From Chloroflexota bacterium (GTDB lineage: Bacteria; Chloroflexota; Dehalococcoidia; Lucifugimonadales; Lucifugimonadaceae): a DNA stretch of 36,505 nt. The position numbers and the translations under genes are program-made. This document shows, piece after piece, positions 14,095-27,902 of this stretch. Within the stretch, counting starts at the first letter, position 1; every line of letters starts with the position of its first letter. The notes beneath the pieces are model-generated. The model saw only the letters and a program-made list of their open reading frames with translations. It did no database searches and was not told the DNA's origin. The stretch spans positions 1 through 36,505 of the forward strand of contig JABMNN010000020.1 in the NCBI GenBank assembly GCA_013204545.1, read 5' to 3'.

Positions 14095-16749
14095 CTATTT
14101 CTTCTCGGGTGCTTCGGCTGGCTCGATTTGGGCCGTGTACCGCCAATCAGCAGTCGGCGAACCTAGTGCGAAACTGATCGAGTCTGTACCACCTGCTGCG
14201 GCAACGTCGTCAAGAACAAGCCGCAAATCTGCTTCACCTGCTTCATCAGCTTCAATTACGAGGCTCAACAGCTCACGATTCAAGCTGACACCACGTTCGC
14301 TCTTTGCTTTGCGAATCGCCGAAATGGCATCACATGCAGCTTGGAACGAACCGGCAATATCAGGCGGAGCGATTGAATCTAGTTCCTCCACAGTTGGCCA
14401 TGGAGCCTTGTGGATCGACGGGTAGTCTGTCTCTTCAGCGAATACCCAGCTCCAAATCTCGTCGGTGATAGTCGGAACAATTGGTGCGAACAATCGAAGT
14501 ACGACTTTCAATCCGAGCCGCAAGGTAGCGACCGCTGATGCCCTTCCTTTTGGATCATCTTCTGAACGTGAACGCCGTTTTAGTAGCTCGATGTAATTAT
14601 CAGTAAATGCTCCCCAGAAGAATTTTTCGGTCTCCTGTAGCGCAACTGAGAATTCGAACTTCTCGAACGCCTGTCCTGCCGTGCGTACAACTTTCTTTAG
14701 CTCAGCCATGAACGCACGGTCTAGTTCATTGGTTATCGGACCATCTTCCGCTGATTGACTCAGTACGAACTTACCGGCGTTGTATAGCTTGGTGACAAGC
14801 TTGCCACCGATCTTGAAAATCGCTTCGTCGTGGGTAGCGTCAACACCGAGTTTGAATGACGCGGACCAGTATCGAACGGCGTCAGCGCCAAACCTGTCGA
14901 GGGTATCGACCGGCGTTACGGCGTTGCCCTTGGATTTCGACATCTTCTTACGATCGGGATCAAGTACCCAACCCGAAAGATTGATGTTGTGCCACGGAAC
15001 CGATTCCTGATGCAGCATCGCCTTGGCGATCGTGTAGAACGCCCAAGTTCGGATGATGTCGTGACCCTGTGGGCGAACGTCCATCGGGAACAACGTGTCC
15101 ATCTGATCGTCTTCATCTCCCCAGCGAGCAACCGTTTGGGGGCTGAGCGATGAAGTGAACCAAGTGTCGAAAATATCCGGTTCACCAGCGAATCCGCCTG
15201 CAACTCCCCGCTGACTCTCGTCGTAGCCAGGAGCCGCGACCGATTCTGGGTCGACCGGCAGCATGTCGGGCGTCGCAATGATCGCCTGGTCGTACTGTGG
15301 CTCGCCTTGATCGTCGAGCGGGTACCAAACTGGAATCGGAACCCCGAAGTAACGCTGACGTGAAATGCACCAGTCGACGTTCAGATTTTCGGTCCAATTT
15401 TCGAAACGCTTGCGCATGAACTCGGGGTGCCAAGTGATCTTGCGCCCCATTTCGATCATCTGATCGGTTTTATCGAGCAGTCGTACAAACCACTGTCGGG
15501 TCGTCAAGTACTCAAGAGGGCTGTCGCCCTTCTCGTAGTAACGGACAGGGTGCTGAATCTGTTTAGGTTCATTCTGCAATGGCGCGCCGTTTCCGATCGC
15601 GGAGTTTGCAGGATCGCGCATGAGATCAACAACCACCGATTTAGCAGAAGGCGAGCGCTTACCAACGATAGTTTGGTAGTTCTCGTTCGCCTTATCAGGA
15701 TTAGTGCTTGCCCAGCCGTCATCACCACCGAACTTGTGATCGAGAATCCGACCGTTTCGACCCAGTATTTGTCGAAGTTCGAGACCCTCTTCACGCCACC
15801 ATGCAACGTCAGTCTGGTCACCGAAAGTACATACCATCAAAATTCCGGTTCCCTTTTCGGGATCGGCTTCGGTGCTAGGGAAGATCGGTACTTTGGCGAA
15901 GAATCCGGGTGTGATCGCGTGCTTACCAAACAGACCCTTGAACCGTTCGTCGTCAGGGTGAGCCGTGATACCAACACACGCGGCCAGCAGTTCAGGACGA
16001 GTAGTTGAAATCACGAAACTTTTTACCTGAGCGTCTTCTTCGAACACTCCAAACTCGATGTCGTGATACGCCCCGCCCTTTTCTCGATCTTCAACCTCAG
16101 CTTGTGCGACGGCAGTCTGGAAATCGACGTCCCACATCGTGGGAGACTCCAACTGGTAAACATGATTTTTCTCATATAGATCGAGGAAACTACGTTGTGC
16201 GATACGGCGGCTTTTATCGTCGATAGTGGCGTACTCATCGCTCCAATCGATTGAATAGCCCATTCGATTGAACATGTCCTTGAAGACTAGCTCGTCCATC
16301 TCCGTTACGACCCGACAAAGTTCAATGAAATTCTGACGGTTGATTACAAGTTGCTGGTCCTTTACGAGACCGAGTTCCGCACGCTTGATCTCAACATCGA
16401 GATTTTCGATGTAGGGAACGTTTCGCTCAGCTCGAACCTTGAAGTAGTTCTGAACACGGCGCTCGGTGGGGAGTCCATTGTCATCCCAACCCATTGGGTA
16501 CGCGACGTTCCACCCTGACATTCGCTTGTAACGTGCCAGAAGGTCTTGATGCGTGTAGGAGAAGATGTGGCCGATGTGGAGTGAGCCGCTAACGGTCGGG
16601 GGCGGAGAATCGATCACGAACGACTTCTCGCGCGTGGCGTTCGGGTCACGTTTTTCTACTCCCAGTTCGCTCCAGCGTTTACGCCAATGCAGTTCGCGCT
16701 CATTGATATCAAAGCGCTGTGGAAGATCGCCAAACTCAATAGACTTCAC
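14095..16749 (-). CDS. valS: Valyl-tRNA synthetase
   Basis: Class I synthetase that charges tRNA-Val and edits misactivated threonine. The ATP-binding HIGH motif is at 58-61 (SGSLHIGHIFSY) and KMSKS at 602-606 (KKMSKSKGNAVTP). The connective editing domain lies between, with TTRPELLAACVGI. The C-terminal anticodon-binding domain follows; no long coiled-coil arm is evident at the end. The 884 residues and the GWDDNGLPTERRVQNYF segment match the ValRS type found in Actinobacteria and Chloroflexota. The T-box leader just upstream has a candidate GUC (valine) specifier, which independently supports the amino-acid assignment. It is transcribed alone, convergent with the RraA-like gene. Confidence 0.95.
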   Translation of the reverse strand: MKSIEFGDLPQRFDINERELHWRKRWSELGVEKRDPNATREKSFVIDSPPPTVSGSLHIGHIFSYTHQDLLARYKRMSGWNVAYPMGWDDNGLPTERRVQNYFKVRAERNVPYIENLDVEIKRAELGLVKDQQLVINRQNFIELCRVVTEMDELVFKDMFNRMGYSIDWSDEYATIDDKSRRIAQRSFLDLYEKNHVYQLESPTMWDVDFQTAVAQAEVEDREKGGAYHDIEFGVFEEDAQVKSFVISTTRPELLAACVGITAHPDDERFKGLFGKHAITPGFFAKVPIFPSTEADPEKGTGILMVCTFGDQTDVAWWREEGLELRQILGRNGRILDHKFGGDDGWASTNPDKANENYQTIVGKRSPSAKSVVVDLMRDPANSAIGNGAPLQNEPKQIQHPVRYYEKGDSPLEYLTTRQWFVRLLDKTDQMIEMGRKITWHPEFMRKRFENWTENLNVDWCISRQRYFGVPIPVWYPLDDQGEPQYDQAIIATPDMLPVDPESVAAPGYDESQRGVAGGFAGEPDIFDTWFTSSLSPQTVARWGDEDDQMDTLFPMDVRPQGHDIIRTWAFYTIAKAMLHQESVPWHNINLSGWVLDPDRKKMSKSKGNAVTPVDTLDRFGADAVRYWSASFKLGVDATHDEAIFKIGGKLVTKLYNAGKFVLSQSAEDGPITNELDRAFMAELKKVVRTAGQAFEKFEFSVALQETEKFFWGAFTDNYIELLKRRSRSEDDPKGRASAVATLRLGLKVVLRLFAPIVPTITDEIWSWVFAEETDYPSIHKAPWPTVEELDSIAPPDIAGSFQAACDAISAIRKAKSERGVSLNRELLSLVIEADEAGEADLRLVLDDVAAAGGTDSISFALGSPTADWRYTAQIEPAEAPEKK

Positions 16750-16839: not shown

Positions 16840-17135
16840 AATAAAAAAACCCATCCACTTCTGAAGCAATAATGCTTGATCAAAGGACGGGTTGACCGCG
16901 GTACCACCTTCGTTGCTCACAATCATCAGACATTCTTAAGGACAATTGTGAACCACTCAATTAGCTGTAACGGAGCTATCGGGCAAACTTACTAATTCGT
17001 GCTCTGCAAAAATTTTCAGTTCGCCAACTCGGAGACGACTTCACGACGACGAGGATTCCGGTTCACACCAACCACCGGATCTCTTTAATCCTGCAAACTC
17101 GCTACTACTTCTCGTCGAAGCTGATTCGATATCAC
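16840..17135 (-). promoter_or_regulatory. T-box leader (tRNA-sensing riboswitch) of valS
   Basis: On the minus strand the leader holds the near-universal T-box GGTGGTACCGCGG (plus-strand 16896-16908), whose bulge pairs with the acceptor end of uncharged tRNA. It is followed directly by an intrinsic terminator. Upstream is Stem I, with the AGAGA and CCGG-GGTTGGTGTGAA-CCGG distal hairpin (about 17060-17082) and an AGTA-type specifier-loop side (about 17108-17116). GAA followed by GTC at 17039-17037 is the likely specifier, a valine codon. When uncharged tRNA-Val is abundant, the antiterminator should form and let valS be read. The leader ends about 90 bases before the valS ATG. It also fills the only gene-free stretch over 300 bases in the window (16750-17181). 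Confidence 0.92.
16843..16893 (-). terminator. Regulated intrinsic terminator of the valS T-box
   Basis: Read on the minus strand, AACCCGTCC pairs with GGATGGGTT (nine pairs, one G-U), with an inner AAGCA/TGCTT hairpin, followed at once by seven Ts. The 5' arm lies just downstream of the T-box motif, so it can be taken up by the competing antiterminator. Confidence 0.9.
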
Positions 17136-22594: not shown

Positions 22595-23554
22595 TTATTT
22601 GATCGTGAACAGTTCTCCAACCGATCGACCTTCATGGATTCGCCTTATTGCTTCCCCAAGAAGCGGGGCAATTGAAATTACTTTGATCTTTGAGTTTACT
22701 TTGTATGAAGGCAGAGGCACCGTGTCGGTTATTACCAATTCTTTGATATGTGGGATTCTGGTAATTCTGTCCGATGCTTCTCCTGGCAAAACACCATGTG
22801 TAGCAGCTAAATAAACATCAGTTGCTCCCTTTTTAGTAATGGCCTCCACCGCGGATATCACGGTTCCACCAGTACTGATCTCGTCATCAAAGAGGATGAC
22901 GGGCCGATCCCCCACTTCACCTATTACGTTCAAACTTTCGACTCGGTCTTCATTCCCGAGACGGCGTTTTTCCACAATCGCTAACGGGGCATTGATAGCG
23001 TCGGCAAAGTCGCGCGCCTTTTTAGAGATTCCGATGTCAGTTGCTACGACCACTGGGTCGGTTAGATTTAAGTTCTGGAAATATTCGACCAGCCTCGGCA
23101 TCGCCGTTAGCTCATCCACAGGCACTTGGAAGAACCCCTGAACCTGACCTGCATGCAGATCCACCATCACGACTCGTTCCGCACCAGCAGTCTCAAGCAG
23201 ATCAGCGATTAAACGACCTGTAATGGGCACTCGTGGTTGGTCTTTTTTGTCGGTGCGGGCATAACTATAGAACGGAATAACCGCTGTTATTCGGCCTGCC
23301 GAAGCACGTTTTGCAGCATCGATCATGATCAACATTTCCATGATGTGATCATTCACGGGCTCGACCGTTGATTGCAGAATGAAAACGTCTTTCTGCCGAA
23401 CATTCTCAAGTATCCGCACGAAAGTATTATCGTTACTGAACTTGAACACTTCGATTTTGCCGATATCCTGCTGGAGGTAATCGCAAATCTTCTGCACCAA
23501 TTCAGGGTGTGAGTTCCCCGCGAAAATTACCGGATTTCCATTAACCCCGAACAT
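22595..23554 (-). CDS. prs: Ribose-phosphate pyrophosphokinase (PRPP synthetase)
   Basis: Makes PRPP from ribose 5-phosphate and ATP for nucleotide, His and Trp synthesis. The 319 residues match class I PRPP synthetases. Marks: PYYSYAR-type PFYSYARTDKKD (94-105), VDLHAGQVQGFF (131-142) with the metal-binding HAGQ area, the catalytic KRR (196-198), and the ribose-phosphate loop FDDEISTGGT (222-231), where the usual Asp before TGG is Ser. The ATG overlaps the stop of the enoyl-CoA hydratase gene as TAATG, so the two are coupled. Confidence 0.96.
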   Translation of the reverse strand: MFGVNGNPVIFAGNSHPELVQKICDYLQQDIGKIEVFKFSNDNTFVRILENVRQKDVFILQSTVEPVNDHIMEMLIMIDAAKRASAGRITAVIPFYSYARTDKKDQPRVPITGRLIADLLETAGAERVVMVDLHAGQVQGFFQVPVDELTAMPRLVEYFQNLNLTDPVVVATDIGISKKARDFADAINAPLAIVEKRRLGNEDRVESLNVIGEVGDRPVILFDDEISTGGTVISAVEAITKKGATDVYLAATHGVLPGEASDRITRIPHIKELVITDTVPLPSYKVNSKIKVISIAPLLGEAIRRIHEGRSVGELFTIK

Positions 23555-24369
23555 TAAAGCCCCTTGAACTCTGGTCGTCTTTTTTGGCGAAGTGCGGCCA
23601 TGCCTTCAACATGATCCTCCGAGGATAGCGTTATTGCCTCCGCTGCGGCAGACATTTCGAGGGAAGTTTCGAGGTCCATTGACATTCCTCTCCGCATCAT
23701 AGTCTTAGCAAGTCGAATAGCGATAGGAGGACCTGATGCGATACGACGCGCCATTTCTTCGGCAGCATTGATTAGCTCACAATCGGCAAAAATACTATTT
23801 ACGAAGCCGAGCGATTTAGCCTCATCAGCTTCCATAAAATTCCCTGTGTACATTAATTCAGCCGCTTTGGTTGATCCGAAGAGACGAGGGTAAAGCCATG
23901 TGCCTCCGTAGCCAGGAAAAAGACCTACATGTACGTAAGCAGCCATGAATCGAGCCGATTCTGATGCAATACGTATGTCGCAAACGCAAGCCAGGTCGAA
24001 GCCCGCTCCGACCGCTGCACCATTAATTGCTGCAATAACCGGCTTCTCCATCTTATATATGGAAAGAATTACCCGTTGAGCAAGCTTGAATCCCCGACGT
24101 AATTCCTCTGCACCGCCAGATCCCGGTTTATGTGGGCCCTTGTCCGCGCCCCCTGCCATTTCGTTGGTATCCGCCCCTGAGCAGAACGCTCGACCTGCAC
24201 CAGTGATAATCACGGCGCGGACGGAATCATCGGCCGCTAATTCGTCAAGGTGTCCAGCAAGTGCTTCAAGTAGCTCATTACTGAGCGAGTTGAGGTAATC
24301 GGGGCGATTTAGCGTGAGAATAGCGAATCTGGATTCGCTGTTTACGTCTCGTATCACGCTTGAGTTCAT
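23554..24369 (-). CDS. Enoyl-CoA hydratase/isomerase (crotonase) family protein
   Basis: Crotonase-fold enzyme acting on acyl-CoA thioesters, 271 residues. The first oxyanion-hole segment is AFCSGADTNEM (about 61-71) and the second is AAINGAAVGAGFDLACVCDI (about 113-132), followed by VGLFPGYGGTWLYPRL. The glutamates of classical enoyl-CoA hydratases are not both evident in the GLFPGYGG stretch, so the exact reaction (hydratase, isomerase, or another crotonase reaction) is open. It overlaps prs by one base. A strong inverted repeat and an extended -10-like site lie just upstream (24410-24459). Confidence 0.88.
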   Translation of the reverse strand: MNSSVIRDVNSESRFAILTLNRPDYLNSLSNELLEALAGHLDELAADDSVRAVIITGAGRAFCSGADTNEMAGGADKGPHKPGSGGAEELRRGFKLAQRVILSIYKMEKPVIAAINGAAVGAGFDLACVCDIRIASESARFMAAYVHVGLFPGYGGTWLYPRLFGSTKAAELMYTGNFMEADEAKSLGFVNSIFADCELINAAEEMARRIASGPPIAIRLAKTMMRRGMSMDLETSLEMSAAAEAITLSSEDHVEGMAALRQKRRPEFKGL

Positions 24370-24420
24370 TGGAGCCTCGACACACTGAGATTATCTGAAA
24401 TACGTCGGAATTCTAGCACC

Positions 24421-24459
24421 GGTGAAAAGCCACAACTGCACAATTGTTCGCTTTTCACC
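24421..24459. repeat. Perfect 10-bp inverted repeat upstream of the enoyl-CoA hydratase gene
   Basis: ggtgaaaagc (24421-24430) and gcttttcacc (24450-24459) are exact reverse complements around a 19-base centre that is itself partly self-complementary (acaa...ttgt). There is no T-run on either side, so it is not a standard terminator. On the minus strand it lies directly before TGCTAGAAT (extended -10 form, 24418-24410), so an operator or a transcript-end structure are both possible. Confidence 0.6.
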
Positions 24460-24566
24460 GTCTGATTCGAGATTACAAAGACTCGAGGAAACTAGATGAC
24501 GCTGCGAGCGCACCTTCTCAGTCACGTGACTCAGACGCATTATTGAGAGCGAGGAGATAAAACTCG

Positions 24567-24773
24567 CTAAGCTGCCTGTTGACCAGGTAGTGCGACAGGC
24601 GCACTCGGCACAGACGAAGGGGTACGGAATAGACGGGCCGCCATTTCCGGTGAAAGATCCTTCGAGAATCCACATTGCAGGCATTTAAGGAAAGTACCAT
24701 GCATGTCGCTGTCAGCGTGAACATCGCCAGTACATCGTGGGCAAGACTTCAGATAAAGCAAATTAGACCTCAT
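24567..24773 (-). CDS. Small zinc-ribbon protein (68 aa)
   Basis: A 68-residue protein with an N-terminal Cys4 zinc-ribbon: CPRC (11-14) and CLQC (31-34), separated by 16 residues (TGDVHADSDMHGTFLK). The spacing and the DMHGTFLKCLQCGF pattern resemble small zinc-ribbon proteins widespread in bacteria, often of unknown role. The C-terminal half is Pro/Ala-rich and probably disordered. It lies between the ArsC-like selenoprotein gene and the enoyl-CoA hydratase gene on the same strand. Shadow frames overlap this place, but this is the only one with a recognisable motif. Confidence 0.7.
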   Translation of the reverse strand: MRSNLLYLKSCPRCTGDVHADSDMHGTFLKCLQCGFSKDLSPEMAARLFRTPSSVPSAPVALPGQQAA

Positions 24774-24935: not shown

Positions 24936-25283
24936 TTATATGAATTGGTCGTATGAACCCTGCTTGAACCCAAAAATTACCTGAGTGCCGTCAGTGAGAA
25001 TAGGTCGTCTGATCAATCGGGGCTCATTGAACATCAGATCAATCAACTCGATCTCAGTCGCTTTACCGCGAAGTTCTCGATACGGTTTAGAGCTCGGACT
25101 CTTCCAAGCAAACATTTCATCGAGAGTCGTAAGCTTACTCAGGTTTTCAATCTCGTCAGTCGTGAATCGATCTTTAAAGAAATCTCGAAATTCATGTTCA
25201 ATATTTGAATCATTGAGAGCCCAACGGGCTGTCTGGCACGTACTTCAACGAGACCAGCAATAAAATTTAAGTTCAGAAGACAT
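24936..25283 (-). CDS. Selenocysteine-containing ArsC/Spx-family protein (TGA read as Sec)
   Basis: A 115-residue thioredoxin-fold protein of the ArsC/Spx/YffB family, visible only if the in-frame TGA at 25247-25245 is read as selenocysteine. The start is FYCWSRUSTCQTARWAL (7-23), matching the family's R-C-S-T-C-R-K-A motif with Sec13 in the catalytic Cys place and C16 forming a UxxC redox pair. The rest matches too: FKDRFTTDEIENL (36-48), KPYRELRG (66-73), LIDLMFNEPRLIRRPIL (80-96) and the end VIFGFKQGSYDQF. Length is typical of the family. An AAGAG lies a few bases before the ATG. It diverges from an MFS transporter gene. It could reduce arsenate or act as a general thiol/selenol oxidoreductase; only two to three family arginines are visible, so arsenate as the substrate is not certain. 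Confidence 0.85.
25215..25233 (-). promoter_or_regulatory. Candidate bacterial SECIS stem-loop inside the ArsC-like gene
   Basis: In the mRNA, AGCCC-GUU-GGGCU forms a five-pair stem with a three-base loop starting with G; beyond one C-C mismatch, two more pairs extend it. The loop begins 20 bases after the UGA (19 bases between), inside the 16-37 range used for bacterial SECIS elements. It would recruit SelB with Sec-tRNA. A fold-energy check was not run. Confidence 0.65.
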
Positions 25284-25396: not shown

Positions 25397-26818
25397 ATGA
25401 GTAATCAATTAAATAACAATCCGTTCGACGTTAAAGCGCGATCATTGAGATCACTTGTATCTGGTGCGTTCAGCAAATCTCGAACGGGTTCGCAAAATTT
25501 CACCAATCTCAGCCTGTACGCATTTGGACTATCCGGCATATGGACCGGTGTAGGTGCGGGTATCCTGCCTTTTAAGATCCTCGAAGCTTTAGAAAGCGGA
25601 GGCGTGGCAATTTTTGGATATGCACTCGACAAAAACGGTGCACTAGGATTAATTTCTCTTCTGGGTCTAGTAGTCGCCTCAGTGGTTCAACTCGGCGCAG
25701 GATCACTGAGCGACCGAGACGATCGACCCGGCAAGAGACTGCCATATATTCTTGTTGGAGCCCTCGGACTCGCAGTGACAACTGTGATCTTTGGATTGAC
25801 CGGCTCGTTCGTCACACTACTTCTGGTGATTATGGCAATGCAGTTCTTTGGCAATTCAGCGCAGGGACCTGCCAACGCGCTGATTATCGACCATGTACCA
25901 CCGGCTCAACGCGGCGAGGCAGCTGGTATTTTGAATCTCTGGCGATTGCTTGGTGGAGGGATAATAACGGTCGGTGTACTCCAGTTCATGGCGAGATATG
26001 ACAAAGACGAATCTCCCGAGTGGATCTGGTATTCGATTGCCCTAATGGTAGTTTTGTTGCTATTCAGCGTCTTTTGGTCTGTGATTTCGACTCGTCCAAA
26101 GGACGGACTTTTTATCCCGACTCTTCGACGATCAAAATTGTCGAATTCCAATCCAGTCGTCAAGAAATCAAGACCGTCAAGCCCTCGTATCAGCCGAAGT
26201 TACTTAGCCTTTCTTGTGGCTCTCGCATTCGCAATCGCAGCAATGTCTTCGATGCAGATATACGCTCTATTCTTTCTACAAGACGTGGTCGGATTAGAAA
26301 ATCCCGCCGACGGAGCTGATCTTCTGGTTGTGATCATTGTGATCGCCGCTGGATTGACTGTAGTACCTGCCGGTTACCTTTCAGATCGCTTAGGTCGCTC
26401 CAAGCTATTTATGATTGCGGGAGCAACCGGTGTAGCAGCATCTTTACTTCTACTTCTTGTCACTTCGATAGGTCAGGTTCTAATAATTGGGGTTGTTGTC
26501 GGTATTTCAGTCGGTCTATTTTTGACCCTCACATGGGCGGTTGCGAACGATCTTGTGAGCAGATCTTCCGCGGCGAAGGAACTCGGCTACACAAGCATTG
26601 CGACGCTTGCTGGTGCTGCAGGTGCACGGTTCGCCGGGATTGGGATCGATGAGCTGAACCATATTTCAGATAATCTCGGATACAAGATGATATTGGTTTC
26701 AGTCTCAGTTTCCTTCGCTCTGTCTGCGTTGATTCTCGCTAGAGTGTCAAGAGACTCGGCTTTTAGCGAAAGCATGACATCATCCAAGGCAGCAACTACA
26801 GCATCGGCTCCTGAGTAA
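25397..26818 (+). CDS. MFS transporter (GPH/SLC45-like, 473 aa)
   Basis: A 12-helix major facilitator permease, 473 residues. The N-terminal ~35 residues are cytoplasmic, then hydrophobic helices from about residue 40. The loop between helices 2 and 3 reads GSLSDRDDRPGKRLPYI, the MFS motif A form seen in GPH/SLC45-type sugar transporters (D-R-x-R-P-G-K-R-x-P). The second half repeats it as GYLSDRLGRSKLF. A basic central loop (about 230-260) splits the halves. The substrate is unknown; the neighbouring ArsC-like gene might suggest arsenical or thiol stress, but nothing in the protein supports that. No clear ribosome site precedes the ATG. Confidence 0.9.
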   Translation: MSNQLNNNPFDVKARSLRSLVSGAFSKSRTGSQNFTNLSLYAFGLSGIWTGVGAGILPFKILEALESGGVAIFGYALDKNGALGLISLLGLVVASVVQLGAGSLSDRDDRPGKRLPYILVGALGLAVTTVIFGLTGSFVTLLLVIMAMQFFGNSAQGPANALIIDHVPPAQRGEAAGILNLWRLLGGGIITVGVLQFMARYDKDESPEWIWYSIALMVVLLLFSVFWSVISTRPKDGLFIPTLRRSKLSNSNPVVKKSRPSSPRISRSYLAFLVALAFAIAAMSSMQIYALFFLQDVVGLENPADGADLLVVIIVIAAGLTVVPAGYLSDRLGRSKLFMIAGATGVAASLLLLLVTSIGQVLIIGVVVGISVGLFLTLTWAVANDLVSRSSAAKELGYTSIATLAGAAGARFAGIGIDELNHISDNLGYKMILVSVSVSFALSALILARVSRDSAFSESMTSSKAATTASAPE

Positions 26819-26939: not shown

Positions 26940-27902
26940 ATGAACGTATTTCTTGCCAGCCCTCGAGGCTTCTGTGCCGGAGTCGATCTAGCAGTCGATA
27001 TCGTCGATCTCGCAATTCAACAATACGGAACGCCGGTTTACGTAAAACACCAGATCGTACACAATCCAAAAGTTGTCGCTGATGTCGAAGCTAAGGGAGC
27101 AATCACGGTAGAGGACGTTGAGGAAGTTCCAGAAGGTGCAGTTGTGGTGTTCTCGGCGCATGGTTCGCCACCCTCGGACTATGCCAAGGCAAAAGTACGA
27201 CATCTAATCGTTCTAGATGCCACCTGCCCGCTCGTCACTCGTGTTCACAACGAGGCGAAGAAATACACCAAAGAAGGAAAGAAGATAGTTCTTGTCGGGC
27301 ATATTGGACATCAAGAAGTGATCGGAACAACGGGTCAAGCTGAGATGACATTGATTGACGAGCGGCAAGACTGGGAATTGCCACACTGGGACAAAGATAC
27401 CGAGGTTGCCGTTTTGACTCAAACTACCCTTTCGATCCATGACACGGCACTTGCGGTTTCGAAAATCAAAAAAAACCATCCCAATGCCATTGTTCGAGAT
27501 GACATCTGCTACGCCACAACAAATCGTCAAGAAGCTGCTTCCGAACTTGCTGATTTGACTGAACTGGTGCTCGTAATCGGAGCCCAGAACAGTTCGAACT
27601 GCAATCGGCTGAAAGATGTAGCGATCAAGAAGGGTGTCGCAGCATATTTGATCAACGGACCCGAAGAGCTCGATCGATCATGGCTCGTAGGTGTCGAAAA
27701 GGTCGGCATCACTTCAGGTGCTTCAACACCAGAAAAACAGGTTAAGGCTGTTATCGAAGCGATCTCACCAGAAAATGTATTCCGCGTTGGTCCTGGGGAG
27801 GAAAGTACGACATTTGCGATTCCGCGAAATCTACGATCACTCGTTGGCGACGGAACACGAAGCAGCCACAAGGAAGAACTAATCCCCGATGAAGATAACT
27901 AG
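26940..27902 (+). CDS. ispH: 4-hydroxy-3-methylbut-2-enyl diphosphate reductase
   Basis: Last step of the MEP isoprenoid pathway: makes IPP and DMAPP from HMBPP with a [4Fe-4S] cluster. The three cluster cysteines are C12 (SPRGFCAGV), C96 (DATCPLV) and C197 (DDICYATTNRQ). Other marks: VFSAHGSPP with the substrate histidine, LVGHIGHQEVIGT, and the proton-relay TTNRQ. GAQNSSNCNRL and GITSGASTP complete the active site. The 320 residues match the family. The next gene's ATG lies 14 bases inside the ispH end, so they are cotranscribed. Confidence 0.96.
   Translation: MNVFLASPRGFCAGVDLAVDIVDLAIQQYGTPVYVKHQIVHNPKVVADVEAKGAITVEDVEEVPEGAVVVFSAHGSPPSDYAKAKVRHLIVLDATCPLVTRVHNEAKKYTKEGKKIVLVGHIGHQEVIGTTGQAEMTLIDERQDWELPHWDKDTEVAVLTQTTLSIHDTALAVSKIKKNHPNAIVRDDICYATTNRQEAASELADLTELVLVIGAQNSSNCNRLKDVAIKKGVAAYLINGPEELDRSWLVGVEKVGITSGASTPEKQVKAVIEAISPENVFRVGPGEESTTFAIPRNLRSLVGDGTRSSHKEELIPDEDN

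Follow-up and report, generated by a model that had tools for sequence, protein, structure and literature searches.

The gene at 24936-25283 on the minus strand of the window, by which we mean the whole 36,505-nt stretch of Chloroflexota DNA that was analyzed, is almost certainly a true selenoprotein gene, judging from its sequence and those of its relatives. Overall, the evidence is best explained by a selenocysteine (Sec) oxidoreductase of the Spx/YffB branch, very probably decoded by means of SelB, tRNA-Sec, and a hairpin. A gene of this type would be split or overlooked by standard gene callers. The codon counts given below show that Sec, as read from TGA, and not Cys, would be the usual state in the sampled Chloroflexota carrying the gene, the window's group included.

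An in-frame TGA in a conserved ArsC-type gene

The frame runs over 115 codons from an ATG at 25283 to a TAA ending at 24936, and its only in-frame stop is the TGA at codon 13 (25247-25245), which lies in the motif U-S-T-C; the start, the lone TGA, and the terminal TAA are all placed as in the original prediction, and the coordinates of the features are collected in Table 1. By direct reading, a purine run, AAAGAG, is found 6 nt 5′ of the ATG. With the TGA translated as Cys, residues 8 to 114 matched the Pfam ArsC model (PF03960) at 47.1 bits (cut-off, 24), which bears out the proposed family membership.

The surrounding gene order, LytB, MFS, the divergent Sec gene, zinc ribbon, enoyl-CoA hydratase, and PRPP synthase, is conserved. 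Among 45 distinct loci of the window's family, some of them short and cut, an MFS gene was found on the divergent side in 38 and either MFS or LytB in 44, and a hydratase or PRPP synthase gene was found downstream in 42. By tblastn, the zinc-ribbon gene was present at 35 of 54 loci, or at 26 of 45 when 9 repeated genomes (L056 to L064) were set aside. Both of the neighbors that had been predicted, an MFS gene and a zinc-ribbon gene, are thus there, the latter as a frame with a TTG start. A mechanically called ORF at 24391-24684 was rejected as the zinc-ribbon gene, having no Pfam match at E 0.1. Elsewhere in the window, a class I aminoacyl-tRNA synthetase gene (14095-16749) is preceded by a T-box leader (RF00230, 123 bits) at 16880-17127 on the minus strand.

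Table 1. Positions of the Sec gene, its elements, and its conserved neighbors in the window
Feature	Position	Strand	Description
Sec-ArsC/Spx-like gene	24936..25283	-	115 codons, ATG to TAA; TGA at codon 13 in the Sec reading
Sec codon TGA (U13)	25245..25247	-	TGA in 111 and a Cys codon in 15 loci, together 126/128
C16 codon, presumed resolving Cys of UxxC	25236..25238	-	Cys in 63/63 A2 rows
SECIS-like hairpin	25215..25233	-	Apical stem of 5 bp with 2 further outer pairs; triloop GUU (25225-25223)
Zinc-ribbon small protein	24567..24761	-	TTG start, 64 aa; conserved downstream neighbor
Enoyl-CoA hydratase family gene	23554..24369	-	PF00378, 195.5 bits; conserved neighbor
Ribose-phosphate pyrophosphokinase	22595..23554	-	PF13793, 167.4 bits; conserved neighbor
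MFS transporter	25397..26818	+	PF07690, 86.7 bits; divergent, conserved neighbor
LytB/IspH gene	26940..27902	+	PF02401, 295.2 bits; conserved neighbor

The TGA is shared across the phylum

Across all 128 homologous loci examined, the codon at the Sec place was TGA in 111, a Cys codon in 15, and unreadable in 2, and neither TAA nor TAG occurred there in any of the 128. Within the window's family, 45 of 76 genomes gave a homolog match; 37 of these loci had TGA, 7 had a Cys codon, all in genus g2, and 1 was cut off at a contig end before the codon. The argument of the original prediction, that a chance nonsense mutation would hardly strike this very codon, is strengthened by these family counts. 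All seven loci of the sister genus g2 had TGT or TGC, and the TGA accordingly takes the place of the first Cys in the CxxC motif of the family, as had been proposed; the g2 genes are considered orthologs because they occupy the same locus position. Searches with a profile built from 43 rows matched 85 of 393 genomes at the class level (E 0.001) and 47 of 400 at the phylum level (E 1e-9), and they contributed 83 additional loci with TGA in 74, Cys in 8, and a broken frame in 1. The census omits 24 weak, partial class-level matches (35.8 bits or lower, profile positions 1 to 54), one of them with TGA. Among the 15 Cys rows, L173 and L174 are distant and long-branched (44 bits each) and may be non-orthologs, i.e., other ArsC proteins. 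Nine relatives were present in a named genome collection, under titles of Chloroflexi or Dehalococcoidia except for the complete genome of Candidatus Lucifugimonas marina JH1073, which we take to be placed in SAR202.

It is conceivable that the gene is decaying, the TGA being a real stop of a pseudogene, or that the TGA is a sequencing error, as the sequence comes from a MAG and isolated oddities occur among the relatives. In L102 (G437), a TAG occurs in addition to the TGA, on the N-terminal side of the Sec codon, and L161 is frame-broken, its other piece carrying the TGA; decay or an assembly fault is possible in both. However, the TGA is shared by 111 of the 128 loci, the protein is conserved on both sides of the codon, the Sec machinery is present, and the other two stops are absent at this position. 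A sequencing error is very unlikely because the TGA repeats across many genomes, including G041, a single contig of 3.1 Mb. Pseudogene and error are therefore ruled out by the codon census, and we regard this explanation as extremely improbable. The selenoprotein reading is supported, with the refinement that the gene is spread through the phylum and is not peculiar to the source genome.

Sec machinery in the source genome and the window's family

The source assembly (2.95 Mb, 134 contigs, 92% complete) contains tRNA-Sec, selA, selB, and selD, the genes by which the prediction was to be checked, each scoring above its curated cut-off. The tRNA-Sec, with a TCA anticodon, reached 65.1 bits against a gathering score of 47 and was also named by ARAGORN. 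SelA scored 517.7 bits (cut-off, 267.9), SelB, with the bits of its frame added together, scored 338.3 (cut-off, 242.25), and SelD scored 374.2 bits (cut-off, 125). The tRNA-Sec RNA model scored in all 14 control genomes, above the cut-off in 5 of them, and therefore the ARAGORN call and the presence of SelA, SelB, and SelD matter for this identification. The selD frame of the source genome (L021, G000:C91:10344-11270) itself contains a single in-frame TGA. In the family, selD was found in 56 of 76 genomes, and 55 of 57 selD places have an in-frame TGA; both exceptions are partial matches, which begin at positions 35 and 39 of the model.

The Sec machinery and this gene co-occur in part. Every one of the 37 family genomes with the TGA form has selA or selD at E 1e-40 (selA in 35, selD in 34), and genera g4 (10 genomes) and g5 (4 genomes) have neither the gene nor selA nor selD. 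The gene is also absent from genera g10 (9 genomes) and g11 (4 genomes), yet selA and selD are each present in 7/9 genomes of the former and in 3/4 and 4/4 genomes, respectively, of the latter. In the Cys genus g2, selA persists in 5/7 genomes and selD in 7/7, so loss of the machinery is ruled out as the cause of its Cys form. Because the machinery was kept, the g2 form represents a swap at one gene and not a by-product of machinery loss, and because g2 uses Cys despite its selA and selD, Sec appears to be dispensable for this protein.

A SECIS-like hairpin that shifts register between genera

The window hairpin lies with a spacing of 19 nt from the UGA to the loop and has a folding energy of -8.7 kcal/mol. 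According to the bSECIS model, the loop is 3 to 9 nt long with G in its first two positions, the stem is 4 to 16 bp, the spacing is 16 to 37 nt, and the MFE is -7.5 or lower (PMC13188914). The window hairpin falls within these constraints with its GUU loop, 5-bp stem, 19-nt spacing, and energy of -8.7, as do hairpins in 104 of 108 Sec genes versus 4 of 15 Cys genes; these gene sets exclude genes with N, cut-off genes, and those without a codon call. Two of the four failing Sec genes belong to the window's genus (L028 and L033). These constraints are permissive, as synonymous shuffles passed in 60% of cases for Sec genes and 43% for Cys genes. The best hairpin energy in Sec genes averaged -13.4, versus -7.6 in synonymous shuffles.

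Folding of the window's hairpin region by itself was indecisive. The SECIS region gave a z of -1.83, with 11 of 200 shuffles as stable, and a second test gave a z of -0.59; similarly, 128 of 2000 synonymous shuffles reproduced all 7 pairs of the hairpin, which is not significant for a single gene. For this reason, we used a comparative test. Relative to synonymous shuffles, the mean folding z was -1.00 in the 108 Sec genes and +0.45 in the 15 Cys genes, and a control stretch further down the same genes gave +0.06 and +0.72, respectively. Gene by gene, just 21% of the 108 Sec genes had a folding p of <0.05.

Stem positions were compared with the T of the TGA as 0. In the window's genus, positions 14-15 and 17-21 pair with 25-29 and 31-32, the loop starting from 22, and the pair 17-29 is A-U in 10, G-U in 5, and G-C in 3 of 18 genes. 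In this genus, g1 (18 genes), 125 of 126 stem cells were paired (mean of 2000 synonymous shuffles, 87.2; maximum, 102), and the codons over the stem are frozen: GCC in 18/18, CGT in 17/18, and CGG in 16/16 of those keeping Arg. MFE folding of the sister genera gave a 7- or 8-bp stem formed by positions 18-25 with 29-36, with the loop from about 26, in 17 of 19 other Sec loci of the family (L044, L046 to L048, L051, L054, L065 to L067, L069, L071 to L074, L076, L078, and L079); L053 and L070, of genus g6, have a stem that differs from this form. The corresponding figure for 18 further Sec genes from the family was 132 of 144 paired cells (shuffle mean, 73.1; maximum, 91; 2000 synonymous shuffles). 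The hairpin thus changed register within the same codons, its loop lying 4 nt further downstream in the sister genera, which offers a chance to watch a coding-region RNA signal move inside a gene. In g2, the Sec-to-Cys swap studied in detail, the hairpin is gone: 23 of 49 and 19 of 56 cells were paired in its 7 Cys genes, counts that were equalled or exceeded by 225 and 409 of 2000 shuffles. All of these shuffle statistics ignore the shared descent of the genes compared.

Fold and proposed function

An AlphaFold2 model with Cys in place of Sec (pLDDT, 89.4; pTM, 0.78) predicts an ArsC/Spx-type thioredoxin fold, and the nearest solved folds were the ArsC-related 3gkx, Spx, and YffB. By query length, the TM scores were 0.89 for Spx (1z3e), 0.84 for YffB (1rw1), and 0.70 or lower for E. 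coli ArsC. In the 63 rows of A2, U/C13, C16, L23, and R93 are invariant and Pro94 is nearly so; L071, which lies outside A2, is a Sec form with UQTS, in which Ser replaces the resolving Cys. The best NCBIfam model was TIGR01617 (Spx/MgsR) at 67.4 bits, under its cut-off of 75.05, and TIGR00014 (arsC) gave 32.7 bits, under its cut-off of 106.05. Because both models match all 63 rows at E 0.001, their names do not separate functions. The ArsC/Spx identity that had been predicted is thus supported but needs refining, as the protein resembles the Spx/YffB branch more closely than it does true arsenate reductases.

The protein might be a selenium-containing counterpart of the transcription factor Spx, in which Sec13 and C16 form a redox switch governing its binding to the alpha subunit of RNA polymerase. 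Its best NCBIfam model, its best profile matches among solved chains, and some of its best folds are indeed those of Spx, its UxxC stands at the Spx CxxC place, and R93 and K61 (R or K in 54/63 rows) align with Spx R92 and R60. However, the TIGR01617 score stays below the cut-off, every row matches the arsC model as well, and a residue expected at the polymerase contact is changed: Spx G52, which is required for the alpha-CTD contact (PMC2801614), aligns with T53, in a column with Gly in 7/63 rows. Spx K62 aligns with P63 (Pro in 44/63 rows, Lys in 4/63). A role as an Spx-like switch is therefore rather unlikely.

A selenium-dependent arsenate reductase for arsenic detoxification would agree with the Pfam ArsC match at 47.1 bits, with the name “arsenate reductases” given to Sec proteins in marine surveys (PMC2398784, PMC1088965), and with the fit of the model to 3f0i and 3rdw, structures titled as arsenate reductases (TM, 0.84 to 0.87). 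Against this stand the TIGR00014 score of less than a third of its cut-off and the poorer fit of E. coli ArsC. ArsC needs an arginine triad, R60/R94/R107 (PMC3169414); here, R93 is invariant and the K61 column holds R or K in 54/63 rows, but the third Arg was not located, the E. coli ArsC profile matches ending at residue 100 or before. The flanking genes scanned with Pfam included no ars genes, and Acr3, the one efflux gene searched for, was not found in the source genome, so an arsenate-resistance operon is ruled out. We consider arsenate reduction a very unlikely function.

A UxxC thiol-disulfide oxidoreductase, rather than a regulator or an arsenate reductase, is the probable function suggested by the motif and fold. 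We favor it because of the sub-cut-off model scores, the lost Spx G52, the missing Acr3, and the fold, and we would rank an Spx-like switch second and arsenate reduction third. In the mechanism that we propose, UGA codon 13 would be decoded as Sec by SelB and tRNA-Sec, as the machinery and hairpin found by sequence suggest, and the hairpin, with its loop beginning 19 nt after the UGA, would direct this decoding. Sec13, placed directly before helix 1, would be the attacking residue; from the UxxC motif and fold, it may reduce a disulfide or an oxidized substrate and form a selenenylsulfide with C16, at a site presumably flanked by Arg93, which is invariant, and Pro94, which nearly is. Thioredoxin or a small thiol might then regenerate the enzyme. 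Within the Spx/YffB branch, it would work as a general thiol-disulfide oxidoreductase of the cytoplasm and not as an arsenate-resistance enzyme.

Evolution of the Sec and Cys forms

A tree of 122 proteins (107 Sec and 15 Cys; 117 columns), from which L045, L079, L102, L129, L161, and L169 were excluded, was rooted at the midpoint and has long branches and many unresolved forks. It requires at least 7 changes between Sec and Cys, 5 of them forced by well-supported branches, compared with an average of 14.3 for shuffled labels. The window's family is recovered as a single clade (support, 100/97), within which the g2 Cys genes form a clade of their own (100/97). The simplest reading suggests that Sec is the older state within Chloroflexota and that it was repeatedly swapped to Cys, the direction of change depending on the midpoint root. 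Such a natural Sec/Cys series lends itself to the question of what is gained by having selenium at a single catalytic position. A broader scenario is an ancestral, phylum-wide, selenium-based Spx-like redox switch in Chloroflexota, in which a Sec/Cys sensor tuned transcription or a core redox pathway, was repeatedly swapped to Cys, and had its SECIS re-sited (loop at +22 in the window's genus and at +26 in most Sec genes of the sister genera, with the T of the TGA as 0); we consider this scenario unlikely.

Comparison with known selenoproteins and ArsC-type proteins

We take the model cd03032 to be a Spx-like ArsC model. In Table 2 of the GOS survey, it is assigned to Arsenate reductase 2, a UxxC group of 42 sequences whose last-column value of 238 we take to be the number of Cys homologs (PMC2398784). 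By motif and description, this group shares with the window protein the ArsC superfamily, the UxxC, and a bacterial, marine origin; it differs in consisting of metagenome reads, and the main text of that survey does not contain Chloroflexi, SAR202, or Dehalococcoid- (PMC2398784). The set may well include SAR202 reads.

UxxS proteins are the other known form, with 14 sequences of a Sec “arsenate reductase” from the Sargasso Sea (PMC1088965) and 77 of ArsC 1 in GOS (PMC2398784). Like the window protein, they have Sec at the ArsC catalytic place, but the window protein has UxxC; one UxxS case, L071, occurs among its relatives. Both forms appear in recent reviews (PMC9312934, PMC13188914). The statement in the original prediction that Sec-containing ArsC-like proteins had been reported from marine surveys was thus correct, and, because of these reports, the kind is already known. 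The family NF041106 (ArsC_rel_Se_1) is likewise an ArsC-related UxxC Sec family (PMC13188914), and 58 of the 63 A2 rows match its model at E 0.001. However, the window protein scored 26.7 bits against the cut-off of 85, which rules out its membership, and none of the 76 family genomes reached the cut-off.

With Spx/MgsR (TIGR01617), the window protein shares the fold, the place of the CxxC/UxxC motif, and the R92 equivalent; it differs in its sub-cut-off score, the loss of G52, and the replacement of Cys by Sec. With the YffB thiol reductases (1rw1 and 2kok), it shares the fold and a single conserved arginine from the ArsC triad, R96 of Bm-YffB corresponding by alignment to R93 (PMC3169414). 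Bm-YffB has a single Cys, whereas the window protein has UxxC, and a thiol-disulfide oxidoreductase role with glutathione has been proposed for YffB (PMC3169414).

The titles and abstract openings of the open-access papers that our searches listed, supplements aside, gave no report of a Sec-ArsC/Spx protein in SAR202 or Chloroflexota, and a search of PMC12013277 for these terms gave no mention. Phylum-wide Sec use in Chloroflexota is thus a wider distribution than the open-access literature that we found states. The window gene adds a member to a known kind of Sec-ArsC protein.
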